A stretch of 21,945 nucleotides of DNA from a virus, in IMG/VR virus record IMGVR_UViG_3300046000_005764, positions 1 through 21,945 of that record; one strand, 5' to 3'. The translations under genes were made by a program, and so were the position numbers. The notes below the pieces were generated by a model. That model saw only the letters and a program-made list of their open reading frames with translations. It ran no database searches and had not been told where the DNA came from. Shown piece by piece: positions 3,232 to 20,140 of this stretch; within the stretch, counting starts at the first letter, position 1; each line of letters begins with the position of its first letter.

Positions 3232-4704
3232 TTATACCTTCCTTTTAAATAATTGTGCTATATCATCGTTGCGATGTACTACAGTGCCTGCGGGTTCCCA
3301 TTCTGTATCCAACCCCGTTAAGACCATCATATTATCAATGGTTTTATATTTTACAGTCCAATCACACGTTAGATTAATAAGTAGTAGATCTGTTTTTTCA
3401 TATAACTGTTTACGGAACGCATCTGCTTTTTCTTTCGATGTTTCCAACAAACGGCCTGGCATTAATAGTACTACACTATAATAATCTTCTTTCCATGTAT
3501 TCAAATCAAATATATCACCCATTGTGAAATATCCCCAATGTATTATCGTTGCCGCGGACATACATCGTTGACGATCCATTTCCACACCATGTGGAATCAA
3601 CTCCGTTTTATCACCAATCACGCGACCAAGTAACACACCATTACCACATCCCAAATCAAGTACATTTCCCGCAGGGATATACTTCATATCACCAATTGCA
3701 TCGGTAATAACTTCATGGAAATGATCCATTGCTTCCTTAAATCGGAAACCATTTTCTTCCCACACCGACGTATCTTCCAATGACTTAAAAAATGATTTGG
3801 TCGTAGTAATCGGTTTAATTTTAATTTTCTCATCCGACCAAGGATACATTGTACCCGACATTCCATCTTCTGGATATCCATGGCTATGTTTTTGCACCGT
3901 GTATTTCCACGGTGTCATATCCGTTCGGGATGAAATTTTATTGATAGGAGTTTTAATTTCCGCAATTCCATGTAATGCTGACCATTCAACTTGCCATGAC
4001 AGTAGTTCATAGATCCAATCTACTTGTTCAGTATATCCTAATTGACGACCCAACTCTGCCATTTTCACACCAATATCTTGTGTGTGAGTACAATTAAACG
4101 AACATGGTAAATGTGATACTAATCGTACACCCTGCCATCTCCACAAAATATTACATTCAGGTGGTGTGTCTTCCTTAATATGGATAATTTTATCGTCGTT
4201 TGCTAATTGTAATTTATCAGCTGCCATGACCCACGAAGTGTCTACAAATTTCTGATCCACCCAATACTTCGTGTAAAAATCTATACAACACGGTGGATAC
4301 CCTAACAATGCACCAACTCTACGGTTATTCAAAGGAGTGGTATTCCATACATCATACCATTCCTTTGCCAATTCTTCCGACTTGGTAAAAACAACACGAA
4401 GTCGATAGGGTTTGCCTGGTTGATATGATTGTGATGTAGATGAATATGTAGTTGACATACCTTCCTTTGCCAACGGTACAATCATAACACCATATTGTTT
4501 ATATTCTTCAACCAATGTACTTAGTTCATCCGAATTAATAATGTCTAATGTACTTGGTCGTATATCGTGAACAACAGACATTCGTTCAATATGTTTCCAC
4601 GCCGAAGATATTGAAGATAATATGGGTTCGTATTTATTTTTATTTTCAATACTGGTCCACTGCACCCGTGTCCAGTCTGGTAATACTGTATTTAGTCTTT
4701 GCAT
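3232..4704 (-). CDS. DUF483-like Cys-rich domain fused to a class I SAM methyltransferase
   Basis: 490 residues with two parts. The N-terminal part (to about residue 230) has GYPPCC at 135-140 and PCSFNC at 200-205, with another Cys at 184. The G-Y-P-x-C-C signature resembles the DUF483 family, which has no established reaction. These Cys could hold a metal or Fe-S centre, but that is inference. The C-terminal part (about 300-490) is a Rossmann methyltransferase: motif I VLDLGCGNG at 348-356, an acidic E-M-D at the end of strand 2 (375-377) and an M-G-D-I-F-D motif near 395-400. The substrate is unknown. It lies 17 bases after the 122-residue gene and one base before the 71-residue gene, in one run with the radical SAM enzyme, so modification of the same target is plausible. 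Its ribosome binding site is weak (AGG close to the ATG). Confidence 0.8.
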   Translation of the reverse strand: MQRLNTVLPDWTRVQWTSIENKNKYEPILSSISSAWKHIERMSVVHDIRPSTLDIINSDELSTLVEEYKQYGVMIVPLAKEGMSTTYSSTSQSYQPGKPYRLRVVFTKSEELAKEWYDVWNTTPLNNRRVGALLGYPPCCIDFYTKYWVDQKFVDTSWVMAADKLQLANDDKIIHIKEDTPPECNILWRWQGVRLVSHLPCSFNCTHTQDIGVKMAELGRQLGYTEQVDWIYELLSWQVEWSALHGIAEIKTPINKISSRTDMTPWKYTVQKHSHGYPEDGMSGTMYPWSDEKIKIKPITTTKSFFKSLEDTSVWEENGFRFKEAMDHFHEVITDAIGDMKYIPAGNVLDLGCGNGVLLGRVIGDKTELIPHGVEMDRQRCMSAATIIHWGYFTMGDIFDLNTWKEDYYSVVLLMPGRLLETSKEKADAFRKQLYEKTDLLLINLTCDWTVKYKTIDNMMVLTGLDTEWEPAGTVVHRNDDIAQLFKRKV

Positions 4705-4721
4705 AGCCTATTTGTTGAATA

Positions 4722-5090
4722 TCAAATGTTGAGTTTACTTTTTTCTTCAGTAATTAGTTGTTGTAAAAATGATTTCCATTCTAAATTTGCTGAAGTTTCT
4801 GGTACGGTATTATTGTTATCTAGTGAACCAAACTGTGCTTCCCATGCACGACGATATTCTCCAGTTTCATCCACATGATCTGCGTGTTGATTACCGTATT
4901 CATCGGTAAACTTAAATTTTGGATGCTCCCCGCGTGATGGAATTTCTTGCACTGGTATTTCGTGTGGTGCTCGAAATTCTTCTGGTAGTTCTAACAACAC
5001 TCCACTTTCCCACAAATCGTTTATTACTTTAAATCGTTGCGAATAGGCACCACTTGTATCTACGTGGTCGGCATGTAATCCAGTTTGCAT
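4722..5090 (-). CDS. Protein with two HADHVD motifs, possible radical SAM partner or substrate (122 residues)
   Basis: No family recognised. The protein carries HADHVDTSGAY at residues 6-16 and HADHVDETGEY at 69-79. The same motif (HADHTDATGKY) ends the radical SAM protein encoded 19 bases upstream. After each motif comes an aromatic/charged stretch ending near F or F-G. Between the motifs is a proline- and glutamate-rich linker; the C-terminus (E-W-K-S-F-L-Q-Q-L-I-T-E-E) looks helical. Start at 5090 has GAGG nine bases upstream. Because each motif is two H-x-D units in a row, and H-x-[D/N] is the unit of the repeat proteins just upstream, I suggest it is a precursor, scaffold or adaptor of the radical SAM system. 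It could instead be a small fibre-associated protein that shares a structural motif. Confidence 0.7.
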   Translation of the reverse strand: MQTGLHADHVDTSGAYSQRFKVINDLWESGVLLELPEEFRAPHEIPVQEIPSRGEHPKFKFTDEYGNQHADHVDETGEYRRAWEAQFGSLDNNNTVPETSANLEWKSFLQQLITEEKSKLNI

Positions 5091-5109
5091 ATTATATATC
5101 CTCGTGTTG

Positions 5110-6411
5110 TTATAGTTCTAAACCAAATTTTTCAAAAAATTCTTGTCTGTATTTACCAGTTGCATCTGTATGGTCGGCGTGGGGAACTACATCTCCGAGT
5201 TTCATTCTATTTAACTGATTTGTTATGTATCGTTCTATATCAAATTTACCTTCCAAGTGTTTGGTAATTTGCGTGAGTCGTAATTCGACTCCTTTACTAA
5301 ATCCATGTAGCATAACTTCTTCATATTTCTTTAAATTTGGATGGAGTGAAAAGGGTTGTTGACCTTTTTTCAACATCAATTTTTCATACATGCTAAATAA
5401 TGTTTTCCAATTTAAACAAGTATCAGTTTTATTTCTCCAATCCATGTCGATTCCAGTACCAGGACAATGCCCCTTACACATAAGGAAAAATCTACAGCCT
5501 TGACATCCACCATGTTCTTCTGGCGTGTGGTATAACGCTAATTGTCGTTCGTATCCATCGTATTGTGCTTTGATCCAATTAATACCGTCTTTATTACCTC
5601 GACCACAATTCGATTGATTCCCTTGCGAATCAATTCCTTGCACGGCATGTGTAGTGTACGGATCACATGGGCGAAATGTACATGTTGCGGAATCATCATT
5701 AATCTTCATCATACCATCGATGTCACGGAACAAATCAAAAGTAAATCGTCCCTTTAATTCCGTTAATTCAAATTCCCACATGTCCAATAGAAATTCTACA
5801 TTTTGTTCTGGTGTTAATGCCAGCGTTTCTCCCACTGCATTATGATCAATTTCCAATGGATGTAATCGTGCACCGTCAACTCCCCACGACCGTAGTTCGT
5901 GAATCCAATTTCTAAATCGTTCACGATATTTTGGTAAACCATTCTTTTTATGAATAGTAATAATCAAACCCATGGAAATTTTTTCATCCAATAGACGCTT
6001 AATAGCTGTCATGGATTTTTTGGTCAGTTCACGAGTTTTCTCTAATGAACCAGCCCATCTAGTGTCATTCATATCATCAGGACCATCAACCGATATACCT
6101 ACATGTACTTTGTAGTTTTTAAACATTTCTATATGACGATCAGTAATTAGAGTTCCATTGGTCTGAATACCATTTGCCCCGTATTTTTCAAATCCCCATT
6201 TAAAAATAGTTTCTAAGTCATCGATATCAGTTAATAATGGTTCACCACCAAATAATATAAACGGTCCGCCTTCCTTTTCCAATCCGGCTAACATTTTTTC
6301 AACTGAATATGTCTTATGTCGAAAGTTTCCAGCATCACGCATGGGATGTTCATAACAATATGGACAACTTAAATTACATACTACTCCTACTGGTTCCAAT
6401 TCAATTGTCAT
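5110..6411 (-). CDS. Radical SAM/SPASM peptide-modifying enzyme
   Basis: 433 residues. The radical SAM cluster motif C-x3-C-x2-C is at C12, C16 and C19, followed by GGEP at 55-58, TNGTL at 84-88 and SVDGP at 107-111. The C-terminal half fits the SPASM consensus: C249-x14-G264-x4-C269, gap, C303-x2-C306-x5-C312-x3-C316, gap, C332. All seven expected Cys are present, so it should bind auxiliary [4Fe-4S] clusters in addition to the SAM cluster. Known relatives modify peptides or proteins (anaerobic sulfatase maturases, PqqE, RiPP thioether and C-C crosslinking enzymes). The last 25 residues carry HADHTDATGKY (411-421), a tail not usual for the family and shared with the next gene. It starts 59 bases after the H-x-D repeat protein, with GAGG upstream. 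The fold is firm; the exact reaction is unknown. Confidence 0.93.
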   Translation of the reverse strand: MTIELEPVGVVCNLSCPYCYEHPMRDAGNFRHKTYSVEKMLAGLEKEGGPFILFGGEPLLTDIDDLETIFKWGFEKYGANGIQTNGTLITDRHIEMFKNYKVHVGISVDGPDDMNDTRWAGSLEKTRELTKKSMTAIKRLLDEKISMGLIITIHKKNGLPKYRERFRNWIHELRSWGVDGARLHPLEIDHNAVGETLALTPEQNVEFLLDMWEFELTELKGRFTFDLFRDIDGMMKINDDSATCTFRPCDPYTTHAVQGIDSQGNQSNCGRGNKDGINWIKAQYDGYERQLALYHTPEEHGGCQGCRFFLMCKGHCPGTGIDMDWRNKTDTCLNWKTLFSMYEKLMLKKGQQPFSLHPNLKKYEEVMLHGFSKGVELRLTQITKHLEGKFDIERYITNQLNRMKLGDVVPHADHTDATGKYRQEFFEKFGLEL

Positions 6412-6469
6412 GTAAATAAAACCTCGTTTAATAAATCAAAATGTAATATACTCATTCAACACTAATTTG

Positions 6470-7336
6470 TCAAGCCCCAACTAACACAGGTTGATCACTA
6501 TGTGGAGTGGTTGCATCACTATGACTTGCGGAGGTGGTACCGTCACTGTGTGGTGTGGTTGCATTGCTGTGACTTGCGGTGGTAGTTCCGTCACTATGTG
6601 GGGTGGTTACATTCGTGTGACTTCCCACGATATCACTATGACTTAGTGGTGTGGTGTCATTCGTGTGCGTTGCAGTTACATTGGAGTGGGTGACCGGCGT
6701 GGTCGCATCACCATGGGCTCCAGGGTTAACCGTGTTCGCGTGGCTTGCTGGCACATCAGTGTGAGGAAATGGTGTATTACCATGTGGCGTGGTGCCATCA
6801 CTATGCGTGGGCGTGTCGGTGAAGTCACTATGACTTCCGCCGGCGCTGCTGTCACTGTGAGGTGCATAACTATCAGAATGACTTGCCGGTGTGGTGCCAT
6901 CACTATGTGCAGTGGTTGCATTTGTGTGACTTGAAACGGTATTACCGTGGCTTGCTGCTGTTGTTGCATTCGTGTGACTTGCCACAATATCAGAATGACT
7001 TGCCGGGGTGGTTACATCGGTGTGACTTGATGCCACATCCGTATGGCCTCGACGTTTATTCGTCGTGGTGGAAATCCAATGCCAAAAGGTACTTTCCGAC
7101 CACACTGATCCTGGTTTTGCACCACCCACAGCGCCCAAATCTGTACTCGCAATGTATCTGTCCGTTCCCGTAGCGTCAATATAATGAAAGTCATTTCCAT
7201 CAACCCACACAGAACCAAGTTTTGCACCGGCGGGAGTACCTGCCGATGTACCAATATAGTAGTATTCTACATTGGTATTATCTATAAAATGAAATTCTGT
7301 TCCACTAACCCATATACTACCTGGTGCCTTTGCCAT
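6470..7336 (-). CDS. H-x-[D/N] repeat protein with three G-S-[IV]-W modules, probable tail-fibre component
   Basis: 288 residues. Residues 5-90 hold three copies of a module of about 35 residues: PGSIWVSGTEFHFID (5-19), LGSVWVDGNDFHYID (40-54) and a degenerate PGSVWSESTFWHWI (75-88). From residue 98 to 281 the protein is only H-x-[D/N] repeats, 24 by my count, mostly HSD, HTN, HSN and HTD, joined by A/T/P/S linkers such as ATTP and GTTPAS. There is no Cys and no [CS]-x-P-x-R sulfatase-type motif in the array. No signal peptide is seen. GGAG lies upstream of the start. It lies downstream of the collagen-like genes and immediately upstream of the radical SAM gene, so it is a candidate substrate. 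A metal-binding trimeric fibre shaft is an alternative role that does not exclude modification. Confidence 0.85.
   Translation of the reverse strand: MAKAPGSIWVSGTEFHFIDNTNVEYYYIGTSAGTPAGAKLGSVWVDGNDFHYIDATGTDRYIASTDLGAVGGAKPGSVWSESTFWHWISTTTNKRRGHTDVASSHTDVTTPASHSDIVASHTNATTAASHGNTVSSHTNATTAHSDGTTPASHSDSYAPHSDSSAGGSHSDFTDTPTHSDGTTPHGNTPFPHTDVPASHANTVNPGAHGDATTPVTHSNVTATHTNDTTPLSHSDIVGSHTNVTTPHSDGTTTASHSNATTPHSDGTTSASHSDATTPHSDQPVLVGA
6494..7045 (-). repeat. H-x-[D/N] coding repeat array, 24 units
   Basis: Array inside the 288-residue protein. Histidines are mostly 6-10 residues apart. The third position of every unit is Asp or Asn; the second is usually Ser or Thr, sometimes Gly or Ala. At the DNA level HSD is often CAT AGT GAT and HTN often CAC ACG AAT, so the same ten-base words recur, which points to growth by duplication. 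Confidence 0.9.
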
Positions 7337-7374
7337 GTTTTACTCCAATATAATCAATTCACTTGTATACATAT

Positions 7375-8223
7375 TTAGATTGTAGGGGGACAGTTAAAAG
7401 AACCACCACAACCTGTTGGTAATGTTGCACATACCAACCCGTAGATCGATGTGTTTGTGGGGGTTAAACTGATACAGGTAACTGTACCTGGTGGGCATCC
7501 CGCATCCACCCCACGTAGACCCAGTGAACCAGATGGTCCTTGCACACCACTACTTCCACTCACACCAGCAGATCCAGATGCAGGGGAATCTGCCGTTGGC
7601 CCCGTTGGTCCTACTGGTCCTGTTGCTCCTTGTGGTCCTGTTGGACCTGTTCCACCTGTGGTTTGTGGTCCAATTAGTCCTTGTGGTCCCGTTGGTCCTA
7701 CAACATTCGTTAATCCTGTTGCTCCTGTAGGGCCATCGACACCAGCTACCAATCCCGTTGCTCCTTGTGGACCTGTTGGACCTGTTGGCCCCGAAACTCC
7801 TTGCACACCAGTACTTCCCGATACCAACGAGGCAATCCCCACCGGTCCAGTAACTCCTGTTAGTCCAATAACTCCTGTTGCACCAGTTGGTCCCGATGCA
7901 CCAGTTGGACCTGTAGATCCTGTTGGCCCTGTTATTCCCGTAATACCTGTTATACCGATAATTCCCGTAGGACCAGTTGAACCTACTCCAGTTGGACCTG
8001 TTGCACCAGTTGGTCCTGTGGGTCCTGTAGACCCCGATGTTGCTACACCAAGTATTCCTTGTGGACCTGTTGGTCCAATACTACCAATTGGTCCTGTTGC
8101 TCCCGACGCAAATGATGCGGTTAGTACATTAGCATTAATTGCAATACTTGCGGTAAGCGCATACTTTGCGGCACGTGCTATACTTGCTGTCGTCGGTGTA
8201 CCTAACGGAAAATATCGTGGCAT
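7375..8223 (-). CDS. Collagen-like tail-fibre protein with Cys-rich C-terminus
   Basis: 282 residues. The N-terminus ([14 protein letters not shown]) is paralogous to those of the two collagen-like proteins upstream and is followed by an A/S/T-rich stretch ending TASFAS. Residues 41-240 are Gly-x-y repeats dominated by G-P-T and G-A-T, with short interruptions. The last 40 residues contain five Cys (243, 250, 265, 272, 278), absent from the repeats, and end S-F-N-C-P-P-T-I. Collagen-like repeats in phage proteins form trimeric shafts of fibres or appendages, so this is probably a fibre with a small disulphide- or metal-stabilised tip. Its ATG lies two bases after the TAA of the chimeric gene upstream and has only a weak ribosome binding site, suggesting translational coupling. 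Confidence 0.87.
7507..8103 (-). repeat. Collagen-like Gly-x-y repeats
   Basis: About 200 residues of Gly-Pro-Thr-type triplets inside the 282-residue protein. The DNA is a run of short GGA/GGT-CC words whose reverse strand also stays open and encodes P-V-G-P repeats. Confidence 0.9.
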
Positions 8224-8225
8224 AG

Positions 8226-9902
8226 TTATGTTGTACTATTAGAGTGTGAAGCTGCTACATCTGTATGTGGTGTTGTGCCATCCACGTGAACTGAATATCC
8301 ATCACTATGCGGGGTCGCATTACTATGACTTGCACCGGTATCACTATGACTTGCTGGTGTGGTCGCATTACTATGACTGGCGGCTGAATCACTATGACTT
8401 GCTGGTGTGGTAGCATTACTATGACTCTCCGCGGCATCACTATGACTTGGTGGTGTACCGCCATCACTATGAGTTGCACCGATATCACTATGACTTGCTG
8501 GTGTGGTCGCATTACTATGACTCGCCGCGGCATCACTATGACTTAGTGGTGTACTTCCATCACTATGCGCTGTAGTTGCGTTGTTATGTGTTGCTGCTAC
8601 ATTGGAATGTGTTGAAGTACTATTTGTATGCGGGGTTACACTATCAGCGTGTGAGGGTGATGTATTTGTATGACTTGGCGCAATTGAATCATAAGTATCG
8701 GAATGGTTAGATGTTCCATCTTGATGCGATCCTGGAACATCTCCATGAAATTCATATGCATCACTATGTGATGTGGTCGCATTACTATGACTGGCGGCTG
8801 AATCACTATGACTTGCTGGTGTGGCGCCATCACTATGTGCCGTGGTTGCGTTAGCGTGACTTTCCGGGGTGTTACCATCACTATGTGGTGTGACTATATT
8901 GGCATGACTTCCGAATGAATATCCATCACTATGTGCTGTGGTTGCGTCGGCGTGACTTGCTGGTGTGGCGACATCACTATGTGGTGTGTTTATGTCGGAG
9001 TGACTTGCTCCCGATGTGTCATCACTATGCGGTGTGGTTGCGTTGTTATGTGCTATACTGTTTGTATGACCGGCGGCTGAATCGGAATGGCTTGGACTTA
9101 TATCCGAATGCGCAGTAGTAGCATTGGTATGTACCGCGGCACAAACACCTGTTACATAATATACCGTTCTACCTTGTGCACCTTGTGCACCAATTGGTCC
9201 ACCACTCCCCGTAACACCAGACGGACCAGTTATTCCAACCGTACCAAATGTATTTGGTCCGGCAGACCCCGATGGCCCACTTGCTCCTGTTGGTCCTGTT
9301 GATCCTCGTACTCCTGTTGATCCTGTTATTCCGGACGGTCCAATCGGTCCAGTAGATCCTGTCGGTCCCACACCTGTTGGTCCTATCGCTCCTTGTGGTC
9401 CGGTTGGTCCCAAACTTCCACTGGGGCCTGTAATTCCTACGACACCTGTTATACCTTGTATTCCAATTAATCCAATTGGTCCTGTTGGACCTGTTGCACC
9501 AGTTGGACCAGTTGCTCCTTGGGGACCTGTAGATCCTGTAACTCCCGTGATGCCGATCACTCCCGTTGATCCAGAATACCCAAGTGGTCCCGTAGGTCCT
9601 GTGGACCCAACAGGCCCCGTTGGTCCGGTAACACCAGTTGCGGTACTTCCTAATACACCATCAATACCTTGTATACCCACAGACCCCGATATACCTGTTG
9701 GTCCTGTTGGTCCCGTTGCACCCGTTGCACCTTGTAATCCTGTAGGTCCAATTGAACCCGATGGACCTCCGAGTGCATACGATGCGGTAACAAACGCCGA
9801 AGTGTTTGTTATAACGGATGCTGTAACAACAGTTCCCGTACTAAGTTTCTCTGCAAATGAACTTGTAGTTGGCGTACCAAATGGAAAGAATCCAAAAACC
9901 AT
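8226..9902 (-). CDS. Chimeric tail-fibre protein: collagen-like half plus H-x-[D/N] repeat half
   Basis: 558 residues. The N-terminus ([15 protein letters not shown]) is a paralogue of the neighbouring collagen-like proteins. Residues 45-245 are Gly-x-y repeats, then a short joint ([12 protein letters not shown]), then residues 258-555 are 40 H-x-[D/N] units by my count. So the repeat seen in the 288-residue protein is here joined to a collagen shaft, which places the H-x-D unit in a virion fibre. Much of the last third alternates H-to-H distances of 7 and 9 residues, giving a 16-residue superrepeat. The start has AGGG upstream; the stop is two bases before the next start. I infer a trimeric fibre with a distal H-x-D domain that could be decorated or metal-binding. 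Confidence 0.87.
8238..9131 (-). repeat. H-x-[D/N] coding repeat array, 40 units
   Basis: All 40 His in this region are followed two residues later by Asp or Asn. Toward the C-terminus the pattern [13 protein letters not shown]-xAA repeats with spacings 7, 9, 7, 9. Less regular units (HGD, HQD, HVD, HNN, HAD, HAN) sit mostly in the middle and N-terminal part. Confidence 0.9.
9168..9770 (-). repeat. Collagen-like Gly-x-y repeats
   Basis: About 200 residues of G-P-T, G-S-T and G-I-T triplets in the N-terminal half of the chimeric protein, ending at a non-repetitive joint before the H-x-D array. Confidence 0.88.
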
Positions 9903-10659: not shown

Positions 10660-11322
10660 TTACGATGCCGCTGCCCATTTTCCAATCGGACATGACGCTG
10701 ATGCCAATTGTGTTTTTGTTTTCATAAAACATCCACATTTTTCACAACGAAACTGTTCGGTTTTTAAAAATTCACACGATTGACAAATTTTAAATCGGTT
10801 AAACGAAGCATCTGCGTCCAACAACACGGGTAATCCTGATGCGGCGTTTTTTCCCGAATGCCACATTTCTTTTGCAAAATTACGTGCTTGCTGAAACAAC
10901 GACGGGAAATTTGATGTGTCTTCATTTTTAATCATGTTTTCCGTTGCTTCGTATTGTTGCTTAACAGATGGGTCATACGCTGCGTCCAAATATTCCTGTC
11001 CGTGCGTCATTTTTGTGGCTACTGCAATATCAATTTCTACATTCATTGCACGATTTGCGTGACGCCAAAATAACGGTGTGTAATTTTTTGGTGCGAAATA
11101 ATACACAGCTTGTGTTAGTGGTCGTGGGAACACCATATTATCTTCACTATAACAGATAGTATGCACATGTACAGGATTTGCTTGATTTTGAATTTTTTCT
11201 TCTAAATCAGTTAAAAACATTCCTTTATACTGTTCGCATCCGTCTGCCAATATAATAGCCAATACAGGATCAGTTGCTTCATCAATTGTTTTTTTTAAAT
11301 CTAAAAATAATTCAGCGCTCAT
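10660..11322 (-). CDS. Thioredoxin-like protein with C-terminal zinc ribbon (220 residues)
   Basis: The C-terminal 45 residues hold C180-x2-C183, C193-x2-C196-x-C198 and C211-P, in the pattern C-x2-C...C-x2-C-G-C-F-M-x-x-K...C-P-x-G-K-W. I know this pattern from small zinc-ribbon tails (DUF6171-like) in many T4-like phages, often near tail genes. The N-terminal part (about 15-90) is compatible with a thioredoxin-like fold: a hydrophobic strand V-L-A-I-I-L-A-D-G-C, a helix, and a possible cis-Pro segment (F-P-R-P-L-T-Q-A-V-Y-Y-F), but with one Cys rather than C-x-x-C. The middle (110-165) looks helical. The start has AGAGG, and the gene lies eight bases after the two-domain protein. Role unknown; a structural or assembly factor is possible. 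Confidence 0.7.
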   Translation of the reverse strand: MSAELFLDLKKTIDEATDPVLAIILADGCEQYKGMFLTDLEEKIQNQANPVHVHTICYSEDNMVFPRPLTQAVYYFAPKNYTPLFWRHANRAMNVEIDIAVATKMTHGQEYLDAAYDPSVKQQYEATENMIKNEDTSNFPSLFQQARNFAKEMWHSGKNAASGLPVLLDADASFNRFKICQSCEFLKTEQFRCEKCGCFMKTKTQLASASCPIGKWAAAS

Positions 11323-12196: not shown

Positions 12197-14755
12197 TTAA
12201 GTTGCGTATAAATTGGTTCCTACAGGAACTATCAATCGATATGCTGTTCCACTACCAGAAACAATTCCTTGGAAGTTTGAACCCGAAGGAACAATATATT
12301 GTCCCGATATTGCCGCTACTGCTTGAGCTGAACTGGATACCGTTTCACCAGGCAAGAATGTCTTGACTTGGGTAGAACTAGATACAGTGTCCGCTGGTAA
12401 TGCGTTGACTACACGAAGATTTGTGAAGTAAAGATTCGTTCCTTCGGTTAGATTTGTTGTGGTTGCTGTACCCAAGAAACTTCCTGAATGTACATTATCT
12501 GCGTTTAACTTAGTCTTAACTCGTGCATCGGTATAGTATAAGTTTGTTATACCCTCGGGTAAACCATCGGTATTTGTTGCCAATGTACCAGATACAACTA
12601 GTGCATAACTTGCCGTTAATGCTCGTGATGCAGTACCGAACGCGTTCCCTAAATCTACTTGATTTGAACTGGATACTGTTCCTATCGGTAAGAAATTTAT
12701 TATCTGATTTGAACTCGATACTGTATTTATCGGTAGTGCTGATATTACTCGTGGATTGGTAAAATATAAATTTGTACCTTCTATTAAATTAGTGGTGGTT
12801 GCCGTACCCAACGAACTTCCAGAATGTACTTCTTCTGCACTTAATTTTGTTTTAACTCTTGCATCAGTGTAATATAAGTTTGTAAATCCTTCCGACAAGT
12901 TATTCGTGGTTGCAGTACCCAAGAAACTACCAGAATGAACAGTATTATCTTTTAATATTTGTTCAACACCACTAGTAAATCCTGTTGTTGATGATGCCGT
13001 GACCTGACCAGAACTTGATATGGTTCCTGCTGGTAATTGTGCCGACGATGAAATAATTCCAGCAGGTAATGCAGTGCTTGAGATATTTGTTAATTGACTA
13101 CCGTTACCTCTGAATGAACCCGTAAATGCACCGGAGATAGGTGAGCTTACCGCCGGTGAACCTGATGGGCTTATCGATAACGCGCCACCAACATCGCTTA
13201 ATGCCAATGTACCCAGATACAACGTTGACGCGGACAGATATAAACTTCTAAACTTTAATGTTGGTGAACCAAGATCATAAATATCAGTTATCGCTGGAAC
13301 AATATGTCCCGATGAGGTCGTTGACCCCGTGATATATAATCCTGCTTCAATGTCTGTTCGTAATGTAGTAAAATCTACACGAATTGAACTAGAGGGTGTT
13401 CTATTATCTAAGTGATCGTCCCCAGTTGCAACAGGAATACGACCTGTTGTTAGTACTGGTTCGTTGCCGAGTGCTCCTGTATTTTTTGGTCCCGCCAACA
13501 ATATTGCACTATTATAATCGGAACCACTTAAATTTTCATATATAAATTTGTGATTTAACCCATCCCAATAAAGTGATGCAGTCGTCGGTGATATCGAACC
13601 AGAATCAATAATTTGTAACCCCGCAAATCGTAATAAATCGGTGGAGTTGACTATTATTTTATTATCACCAACAATTAATTCCGATGCGCTAGTATAAACA
13701 ATAGACGATGAACCTAATATATTTAAATTACCCGTAACGGTAACGGATCCTGACATAATTTGATTACCAACAAATGTATTGGACCCTGTGGTTGCTATTG
13801 TTGTAATACCGATAGTATTACGAACATCAATTTGACTTGATGCGGTGACCCATCCTGGTTGTTGTGCGGACGAGGACACCGTTCCAATAGGTAACGATTG
13901 CACCACTTGTGTTGATGATGATACTGTTCCCGCGGGCACACTGCTTGCCGACAATTGCATAGAGCTACTTACTGTTCCATCAGGCAAAAATACTTTTACT
14001 TGGGTTGACGATGATACCGTATTTGCTGGAAGATTTGCTACAACTTGTGCGGACGATGATACGGTTCCCCCAACAGTTTTCAATGTTATTTTTGCATTGG
14101 GTGCGTCGGTGGATACGTCAATTCCCGTGGATCCTGTAATGAATATACCGGCGGTAATTGTAAATGTTTTGTTTCCATCCGTACCGAGTGTATTGACCGA
14201 AGGTTGTCCAGTGACCGATTGATAATTAATTTGTCCAGACGAACTCACCACCGCTTCTGCACTCAACTTGGCTTTTACACGAGTGTCGGTGTAATATAAA
14301 TTACCACTTTCAGAAATATCTGCCGTAGTTAGAGTTCTACTAGCACCCAAGGCTACAGAAGTTCCGTTAATAGTAATAGTGTTATTCGTTAACGCCGCGT
14401 TTGGAATACTACTTAATCCTGCACCACTTCCACTAAACGATCCCGATGTAAAAATAGTTGATGATGCGGTTACTCCCGCGGGTGTAATAAATGTACCCGA
14501 TATTGCCGCGGCCACTTGAGCAGAACTAGTTACCAATCCTACTGGTTTATTAAGAATATTTACGAAATCTCGTGCATCATTGGTTAATTTTTCTTTTCCA
14601 ATCGTTCCATCACCGAATGTAACTCCTCCGGGTAAACTACCAATTAATACACTTGCTGAGATGGTTCCTGAGGTAATCGTTACAGGATCATTGAATACTA
14701 GGGTAGCACTACCAGTAGTAGCGCGGCGAATATCATTAACTTTTAGTATACTCAT
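12197..14755 (-). CDS. Large tail-fibre protein with LYYTDARV and V-S-S-S-x-Q repeats
   Basis: 852 residues. Two repeat types run through it: NLYYTDxRVK(A/T)KL or NLYFTNxRV (five copies, from residue 152 on), and G-T-V-S-S-S-x-Q-V (about a dozen, as at 231-237, 247-253 and 789-796). The middle holds D-I-Y-D-L-G-S-P-T-L-K-F-R-S-L-Y-L-S, a pattern common in phage fibre shafts. Residues 625-699 and 737-811 are a near-identical duplication of about 75 residues. N-terminal MSILKVNDIRRATTGSATLVF probably forms the attachment end. No enzyme motif is seen. It is the first gene after the terminator region, so a promoter may lie at 14756-14815. Confidence 0.88.
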   Translation of the reverse strand: MSILKVNDIRRATTGSATLVFNDPVTITSGTISASVLIGSLPGGVTFGDGTIGKEKLTNDARDFVNILNKPVGLVTSSAQVAAAISGTFITPAGVTASSTIFTSGSFSGSGAGLSSIPNAALTNNTITINGTSVALGASRTLTTADISESGNLYYTDTRVKAKLSAEAVVSSSGQINYQSVTGQPSVNTLGTDGNKTFTITAGIFITGSTGIDVSTDAPNAKITLKTVGGTVSSSAQVVANLPANTVSSSTQVKVFLPDGTVSSSMQLSASSVPAGTVSSSTQVVQSLPIGTVSSSAQQPGWVTASSQIDVRNTIGITTIATTGSNTFVGNQIMSGSVTVTGNLNILGSSSIVYTSASELIVGDNKIIVNSTDLLRFAGLQIIDSGSISPTTASLYWDGLNHKFIYENLSGSDYNSAILLAGPKNTGALGNEPVLTTGRIPVATGDDHLDNRTPSSSIRVDFTTLRTDIEAGLYITGSTTSSGHIVPAITDIYDLGSPTLKFRSLYLSASTLYLGTLALSDVGGALSISPSGSPAVSSPISGAFTGSFRGNGSQLTNISSTALPAGIISSSAQLPAGTISSSGQVTASSTTGFTSGVEQILKDNTVHSGSFLGTATTNNLSEGFTNLYYTDARVKTKLSAEEVHSGSSLGTATTTNLIEGTNLYFTNPRVISALPINTVSSSNQIINFLPIGTVSSSNQVDLGNAFGTASRALTASYALVVSGTLATNTDGLPEGITNLYYTDARVKTKLNADNVHSGSFLGTATTTNLTEGTNLYFTNLRVVNALPADTVSSSTQVKTFLPGETVSSSAQAVAAISGQYIVPSGSNFQGIVSGSGTAYRLIVPVGTNLYAT
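12323..12883 (-). repeat. Internal duplication in the large fibre gene (two copies of about 225 bases)
   Basis: Copies lie at about 12659-12883 and 12323-12547. They encode TNLYYTDARVKTKL...HSGS...LGTATTTNL...EGTNLYFTN...RV...ALP...TVSSS with only a few replacements, including S-A-E-E versus N-A-D-N. Between them is a shorter stretch containing R-A-L-T-A-S-Y-A-L. The similarity points to recent duplication or gene conversion. Confidence 0.85.
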
Positions 14756-19549: not shown

Positions 19550-20140
19550 TTAAAATCCGTTTGTTGTAGGATTGTAAAAAACTAAACCTGTTACATTTGT
19601 TGTTTTTGGTATAGTTGGAGTTTGGTAGTTGAAACTAAACACATCACCACCACCTATTTCACCAAATTGCATTCTAATTGGATAATAAGTTCCTGCTGTT
19701 AATGAAACTGTGGCACTTCGTTCCGTATTACCATGTGCTCCACCATTATTTATATTAGCATTAGCAGTAGTAAATCCCGATAATGCATTTGCTCCAATCC
19801 ATAAATACGAACCATCATCACTTGATATATAAAGTGTATATGTTTCTGTTGTTGTTGGTTTAAAATATCCTAACCACTGTACACTAAAATTAGAACCATC
19901 ATCCGAACTTGGTTCACTAATAGTAGTAGTTTGTACAGAAGTTGCCGGATTTGCTCCATAAGTAGTTGGTGTTGCCGTTGCAAAAAATGATGGGGTTTCA
20001 TTATGATATCCTGCATAAGTTGTTTTATATAACCCCGCATTATAATTGGTTGGTTGCCATACAATATTATTATTCAAATATGCTATTGTTGCAGTATTTC
20101 CATTAAATCGTATATTAGTTGCATCTCCAAATACTGGCAT
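19550..20140 (-). CDS. PA14/GLEYA-type carbohydrate-binding-like protein (196 residues)
   Basis: Residues about 85-180 carry the PA14-type pattern: F-S-V-Q-W-L-G-Y-F-K-P, then T-Y-T-L-Y-I-S-S-D-D-G-S-Y-L-W-I-G, a G-A-H-G loop, and L-T-A-G-T-Y-Y-P-I-R-M-Q-F-G-E...F-S-F-N-Y. The adjacent Asp pair (S-D-D-G) is where calcium-dependent PA14 lectins hold their sugar. The N-terminus (F-G-D-A-T-N-I-R-F-N-G) probably anchors it. The start ATG lies three bases after the TAA of the 168-residue fibre gene, with AGGA overlapping that stop, so the two are coupled. A receptor-binding tip protein is the best guess. Confidence 0.82.
   Translation of the reverse strand: MPVFGDATNIRFNGNTATIAYLNNNIVWQPTNYNAGLYKTTYAGYHNETPSFFATATPTTYGANPATSVQTTTISEPSSDDGSNFSVQWLGYFKPTTTETYTLYISSDDGSYLWIGANALSGFTTANANINNGGAHGNTERSATVSLTAGTYYPIRMQFGEIGGGDVFSFNYQTPTIPKTTNVTGLVFYNPTTNGF

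Follow-up and report, generated by a model that had tools for sequence, protein, structure and literature searches.

Radical SAM (rSAM) enzymes with a SPASM domain that form three-residue cyclophanes join the ring of a Trp, Phe, Tyr or His residue at position i to the beta-carbon of residue i+2; Asn and Asp are among the i+2 residues of known cyclophanes, and ScaB tolerates Tyr instead of His (PMC11002830). In the triceptide systems (XncB, GrrM/OscB, FxsB, YhhB, HaaB and YxdB; PMC11002830), such an enzyme is encoded beside an aromatic-x-X3 protein. We analysed a gene cluster at positions 3232-9902 of a 21,945-nt stretch of viral DNA (IMG/VR record IMGVR_UViG_3300046000_005764; hereafter the window). 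All six genes of the cluster lie on the minus strand, at the coordinates given in an initial annotation of this DNA, and two of them encode fibre proteins rich in His-x-[Asp/Asn] (H-x-[D/N]) units. The cluster is probably a virus-encoded protein-modification cassette with which the phage staples the shaft of its fibres at dozens to hundreds of positions.

The cluster resembles the triceptide systems in that an rSAM/SPASM enzyme adjoins a protein with aromatic-x-X3 units that offer an abstractable C-beta hydrogen at X3; position 1 is His, Tyr, Phe or Trp, and position 3 includes Asn and Asp. By analogy, the aromatic-x-[D/N] code is the substrate grammar of triceptides. However, the proposed substrates are mostly fibres of 150-1,470 residues that hold tens of units, rather than short leader-core peptides, the partner is a DUF483 protein, and the enzyme scores fall under all curated family cut-offs. 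This is not a classical locus for a ribosomally synthesised and post-translationally modified peptide (RiPP): neither a short leader-core precursor nor a protease, transporter or exporter was seen in the cassette.

Other described enzymes share some of these features. ChlB is described as a 'multiple cyclophane synthase' (PMC12636437); ChlB/ChlBH (PDB 9gm3, 9gmc) is, with the anaerobic sulfatase maturase (anSME), the top structural match of the window enzyme and forms several cyclophanes per substrate. Unlike the window enzyme, which has no such domain, ChlB is fused to an HExxH hydroxylase, and it binds a RiPP precursor via a leader. The anSME family (TIGR03942, PDB 4k36-4k39) ranks first or nearly first among the sequence and fold matches, and its members oxidise the beta-carbon of a side chain in a protein, but no sulfatase was found in the cassette and the motif here is aromatic-x-[D/N], not C/S-x-P-x-R. 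The window enzyme reaches 83 bits against the TIGR03942 cut-off of 349, and an anSME identity was rejected. The His-Xaa-Ser system (HxsA-HxsD) also combines His-based tripeptide repeats with rSAM enzymes; in contrast, the third residue here is D/N and not Ser, and there is no HxsB/HxsC pair. Membership in that system was dismissed, as the HxsB model matches 3 of 36 members of the window enzyme's family at 1e-10, the window enzyme not included.

Kolesnik et al. 2024 reported an 'rSAM module' in the Thermus phages Cumys and phiMa and in prophages, composed of an rSAM gene, DUF483 and an unknown gene, noted DUF483 fusions, and suggested a role in DNA modification (PMC11437467). The module is homologous to the window cassette: the same rSAM and DUF483 families adjoin a repeat fibre, and in the window the rSAM gene, DUF483 and a third gene likewise stand in one run. 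Between the window and the Thermus phages, the rSAM enzymes are 46-52% identical, the DUF483 parts are 29-32% identical, and the fibre N-terminal domains are homologous. The accessible portion of that paper neither describes the repeats nor names a substrate (PMC11437467), and we found no publication in the open-licence literature on rSAM-modified virion proteins or tying the module to fibres. The initial annotation knew of no described phage system of this kind; the module had in fact been reported, albeit, in that portion, with a conjecture about DNA modification and not about fibres.

Fibre repeats and their association with the enzyme

Fibre protein 1 (8226..9902, minus strand) consists of a collagen-like N-terminal part, recognised by Pfam collagen repeats, followed by 40 H-x-[D/N] units, where 3.6 are expected from composition; its counterpart lies upstream of the rSAM gene in relatives too. 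Fibre protein 2 (6470..7336, minus strand) carries 24 units, where 3.5 are expected, after a PGSxW...YID N-terminal domain, which the initial annotation did not mention and which is homologous to that of the phiMa and Cumys fibres. The two proposed substrates thus hold the 64 units first counted, on either side of a collagen-like protein (7375..8223, minus strand; Pfam Collagen, 3e-22). Neither the H-x-[D/N] tracts nor a 122-residue protein encoded in the same cluster was assigned to a named family by Pfam, PHROGs or NCBIfam.

To relate the repeats to the enzyme, rSAM clusters were defined at 70% identity, and a tract was counted where aromatic-x-[D/N] units occurred in the examined flank. A tract was nearby in 40 of 43 rSAM clusters but in 1 of 74 other rSAM/SPASM loci (Fisher p = 1.5e-26); without two clusters that had been found via repeats (L164 and L215), the proportion was 38 of 41. 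The sole control with a tract (L104:925-2509, from Oligoflexaceae) encodes GrrM/OscB (398 bits, cut-off 310), an enzyme known to form cyclophanes, and next to it a W-x-[N/D] repeat protein with HHWNNWHDWKDWKDW repeats. This locus is an unplanned positive control, and the tract criterion also catches an established triceptide-type system.

The converse scan was blind to the enzyme and searched IMG/VR at the DNA level for four H-x-D units repeating with a period of 4. Among the matches listed, 23 loci had dense open reading frames; 12 of these were genuine degenerate repeat proteins by inspection, and a family rSAM gene was on the same record in all 12. Two loci, L181 and L223, lie on contigs whose rSAM was already known. 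The other 11 HxD-rich loci among the matches listed were judged by eye to be either exact tandem repeats of DNA or strings in the wrong frame and were rejected; a family rSAM was found on none of the rejected loci searched. The initial annotation had inferred that the phage modifies its own fibre repeats, had proposed a search of the neighbourhoods of such repeats, and had named the lack of any statistical link between repeats and enzyme as evidence to the contrary. Examined in both directions, the link holds, and this two-way association supports the inferred modification.

It might be argued that the repeats simply reflect low-complexity composition and that their neighbourhood is coincidental, as some viral contigs do hold spurious HxD strings derived from perfect DNA tandem repeats. 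However, among the matches listed, spurious loci never occur with rSAM whereas genuine ones always do, the observed unit counts exceed those in shuffles, and positions 1 and 3 keep their residues although synonymous changes have accumulated. We consider the probability of coincidence to be practically negligible and rejected it.

The code of the repeats was analysed in 87 non-redundant tracts with 2,643 units. Among 2,700 His residues, 98% had D or N at +2, and the third unit residue was D in 2,259 units and N in 384. The X2 position is free, although Pro is almost absent (1 in 2,643). The spacing between units is irregular, ranging from 3 to 25 residues, and therefore indicates a local tripeptide signal rather than a structural period. 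Where D/N lacked His at -2, F, Y or W occupied that position in 29.8% of cases, compared with a background of 4.9% and with 4-7% at other offsets. F-x-N predominates in the fibre of L109 (47 aromatic units, 6 with His), and position 1 is a mixture of H, Y and F in the fibres of L133 and L028. The true code, which goes beyond the initial annotation, is aromatic-x-[D/N], with His replaceable by Phe, Tyr or Trp in relatives.

Homologous fibre pairs kept positions 1 and 3 while X2 and the linkers varied and synonymous changes occurred throughout. Between L122 and L124, amino-acid changes at unit positions 1, 2 and 3 numbered 1/40, 22/40 and 0/40, respectively, against 40/87 in the linkers. The contrast was clearest in this pair and in L131/L135; it was lost in L006/L012, L009/L010 and L009/L008, perhaps because of misaligned repeats.

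A second alternative is that the units bind metal and thereby fold or rigidify the fibre, while the rSAM enzyme has another target. His/Asp pairs are able to bind metals, HxH iron sites occur in T4-type fibre tips, and an HADHxD motif is very strictly conserved in the 122-residue protein. Nevertheless, the Phe-x-Asn repeats of L109 and the Tyr and Trp substitutions would be poor stand-ins for a His ligand, the irregular spacing of 3-25 residues speaks against a structural register, and metal binding leaves the near-perfect link with rSAM unexplained. On these points, this explanation is very unlikely and was rejected.

The radical SAM/SPASM enzyme and its predicted product

The enzyme (5110..6411, minus strand), proposed as the fibre modifier on the basis of profiles, alignment and fold, contains the radical SAM cysteines C12-x3-C16-x2-C19 and the SPASM signature C249-x14-G264-x4-C269, C303-x2-C306-x5-C312-x3-C316 and C332. 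The signature is complete and spaced as first described, and all of these cysteines, together with an extra C244, are invariant in 36 relatives. With both the cluster motif and the seven-Cys signature present, and a Pfam Radical_SAM score of 54.5 bits that exceeds the cut-off, the enzyme belongs to the radical SAM/SPASM superfamily.

The predicted structure (predicted local distance difference test, pLDDT, 87; predicted template modelling score, pTM, 0.85) has anSME and ChlB as its closest solved folds (template modelling score, TM, about 0.6; about 19% identity). The closest families of the enzyme are mostly peptide or protein modifiers, and the models of the cyclophane maturases DynA, YhhB and AmcB, as well as that of anSME, match 36 of 36 family members. 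The window enzyme nevertheless scores below the curated cut-off of every maturase family tested (YhhB, 65 vs. 445 bits; GrrM, 49 vs. 310), and it is not a member of YhhB, AmcB, GrrM, FxsB, XyeB or DynA. Judged from its sequence, it appears to work like a triceptide maturase outside any named family.

The enzyme very probably acts on the aromatic-x-[D/N] units of the fibres. It would recognise aromatic-x-[Asp/Asn], here nearly always His-x-[Asp/Asn], in fibre shafts that are unstructured or extended and take a hydrogen off the Asp/Asn beta-carbon. A bond from this carbon to the ring of the aromatic residue two positions upstream would then close a strained three-residue cyclophane, one in each unit. 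With dozens to hundreds of these staples in a chain, a flexible hydrophilic tract would become a stiff rod resistant to proteases and heat. By analogy with the known enzymes, the likely product in the fibre units is the three-residue cyclophane. Crosslinking, epimerisation and methylation had all been listed in the initial annotation; crosslinking fits best with the requirement for an aromatic first residue, whereas the other two require neither an aromatic residue at i nor D/N at i+2.

The substrate assignment alone does not determine the product, and the enzyme could modify the same units by epimerisation, C-methylation, radical-started beta-hydroxylation or inter-chain crosslinks. Many members have a methyltransferase domain fused to DUF483, the second of the two closest structural classes is that of anSME-type oxidation, and the relatives at L031 and L033 adjoin RiPP C-methyltransferases. 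However, in addition to the aromatic requirement, the F-x-N, Y-x-D and W-x-N variants agree with the known i to i+2 aromatic-to-C-beta crosslinks, and the cassettes of L032, L128, L133, L149, L151 and L155 have no methyltransferase domain. We regard a different chemistry as rather unlikely.

Several observations weigh against cyclophane stapling of the fibres. The proposed substrates are long virion proteins with no obvious leader peptide, protease or exporter, and the enzyme lies far under the curated cut-offs of all known cyclophane maturases. Its matches to anSME equal those to cyclophane enzymes, and fold and family therefore do not fix the chemistry. Three clusters (L027, L031 and L033) have no repeat tract in the flanking sequence examined. 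L027 does have DUF483; at L031 (8040-12591) and L033 (4272-8248), in Bradyrhizobium and a Lysobacterales metagenome-assembled genome, a RiPP radical SAM C-methyltransferase (TIGR03975) scoring twice the cut-off precedes rSAM and DUF483, and the rSAM possibly has a different peptide substrate. In addition, the controls (L035-L108) are mostly chromosomal, for which the converse scan of viral contigs compensates just in part.

The DUF483 partner, the enzyme tail and other genes of the window

The cassette partner (3232..4704, minus strand; 490 residues) combines an N-terminal DUF483-like part, at 23.2 bits just under the Pfam cut-off of 25, with a C-terminal methyltransferase domain; profile and fold matches agree with the fusion as first annotated, the fold matches listed covering the methyltransferase half only and none the DUF483 half. 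The invariant residues of DUF483 include a GYPxCC pair (C139, C140) and a C-x3-C (C201, C205), and these suggest a predicted metal or iron-sulfur (Fe-S) site. Several DUF483 members lack the methyltransferase domain, as in the cassettes named above; methylation is therefore not the core function, and comparison of the sequences indicates that the fused domain is optional. By profile, a DUF483 partner occurs at most family loci and at 0 of 74 controls. Several loci without a match are short or end close to the rSAM gene, and L148 appears to be a true exception. The partner lies near the rSAM gene in relatives or is fused with it, as in Bryobacterales, where the two form a single protein. It probably serves in substrate handling or has an auxiliary metal or Fe-S function. 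At L030:10001-11977, rSAM and DUF483 are joined in one 658-residue protein with two small HxD-rich proteins ahead.

The window enzyme ends in PHADHTDATGKY, and its C-terminus contains HADHTDATGKY, a tail missed in the initial annotation. The same motif region appears twice, in similar form, in the 122-residue protein (4722..5090, minus strand), which occurs throughout clade L001-L013. The two HADHVD motifs first noticed in this protein were recovered, and HADHxD is retained in 8 of 8 aligned homologues; a weak PHROG match (E = 0.06) was set aside. The HADHxD-xTGxY region of this protein and of the enzyme tail is conserved far more strictly than the fibre units.

Past the SPASM domain and close to the C-terminus, 45 of 66 distinct family rSAM enzymes carry two or more HxD units, compared with 0 of 72 control enzymes. 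The double form HxDHxD (HGDHTD, HGDHWD, HADHTD) stands in the tails of 41 of the 66, while fibres show it far less often (188 of 2,643 units). The enzyme may modify its own tail, or the tail may act as a tethered pseudo-substrate or enzyme dock; in the window model this region is of low confidence, and hence no position can be assigned to it. The 122-residue protein may be a substrate, an adaptor or a scaffold.

Three further genes of the window lie outside the cluster. In an 852-residue protein (12197-14755), a GTVSSS(A/T)Q-like motif recurs many times and forms a second repeat type in the structural region. A 220-residue protein (10660-11322), encoded between the collagen-like and structural genes, has a C-terminal DUF6171-like Cys motif just below the Pfam cut-off, and a 196-residue protein (19550-20140) resembles by eye a PA14-type adhesin domain and has no NCBIfam match.

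Distribution of the cassette and its implications

Close rSAM relatives were found in 22 IMG/VR contigs, and close and distant relatives together in about 70; the distant ones, which the initial annotation overlooked, retain the gene neighbourhood. Identity to the window enzyme is 52% in the Thermus phage phiLo, 46% in Cumys and phiMa, 42-48% in six bacterial genomes and 31-33% in haloarchaeal plasmids. In Cumys and phiMa, baseplate genes are followed by a collar fibre, a small gene and then the repeat fibre, rSAM and DUF483, which directly adjoin one another. In a haloarchaeal plasmid or provirus of Halomicrococcus, a baseplate J gene is shortly followed by a repeat fibre, whose N-terminal domain is of the same kind as in the relatives of fibre protein 2, and then by rSAM (31% identical) and DUF483. 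From these sequence comparisons, the cassette spans unrelated phages of bacteria and an archaeal provirus-like element. In 50,697 phage records, the close homologues of the rSAM, the DUF483 partner and the repeat fibre each led to three Thermus phages, the same ones every time, and to no others. In the phyla of L030 and L034, surveys covering 297 and 296 genomes yielded no family members beyond those known, and the family is therefore rare in cells.

Some relatives show further arrangements. The phage phiLo (L024:17807-23663, minus strand) encodes three proteins, annotated as hypothetical, with 75, 104 and 58 H-x-[D/N] units, the densest stretch having 24 units per 100 residues. An actinobacterial protein (L034:12829-13302) has an apparent twin-arginine translocation (Tat) or lipoprotein signal followed by 18 H-x-D units, and its gene overlaps the DUF483 gene at the latter's end; here the cassette may be used at the cell surface, apart from recognisable phage genes. 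Two family rSAM genes per cassette occur at L129:10001-12914 and L128:10001-14857.

The gene order of the Thermus phages also bears on the published proposal, for Cumys and phiMa, that the module modifies phage DNA, which draws on cyanobacterial homologues near deazapurine genes (PMC11437467); the loci compared here leave out those homologues. The third gene of the module is a repeat fibre, such repeats accompany 40 of 43 clusters, and the same motif stands on the enzyme tails. Moreover, the Bradyrhizobium and Lysobacterales exceptions adjoin RiPP peptide C-methyltransferases, and the closest families of the enzyme are chiefly peptide or protein modifiers. DNA modification is extremely unlikely on these grounds and was rejected.

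On balance, viruses of bacteria and archaea appear to build stapled fibres, with tens to more than 100 cyclophanes per chain, by means of a dedicated rSAM enzyme whose H-[G/A]-D-H-x-D tail it may modify or use for docking on the growing fibre. If this is true, a Thermus phage module previously without an assigned function would gain a substrate, and because these phages grow on T. thermophilus HB8 the stapling hypothesis is directly testable. It would also provide multi-site, apparently leaderless peptide-stapling enzymes, some of them from phages of thermophiles, for peptide engineering. Peptide crosslinking by rSAM enzymes has so far been known from small natural products; here its product would be a structural material, namely a virion fibre with up to a hundred or more staples in each chain.

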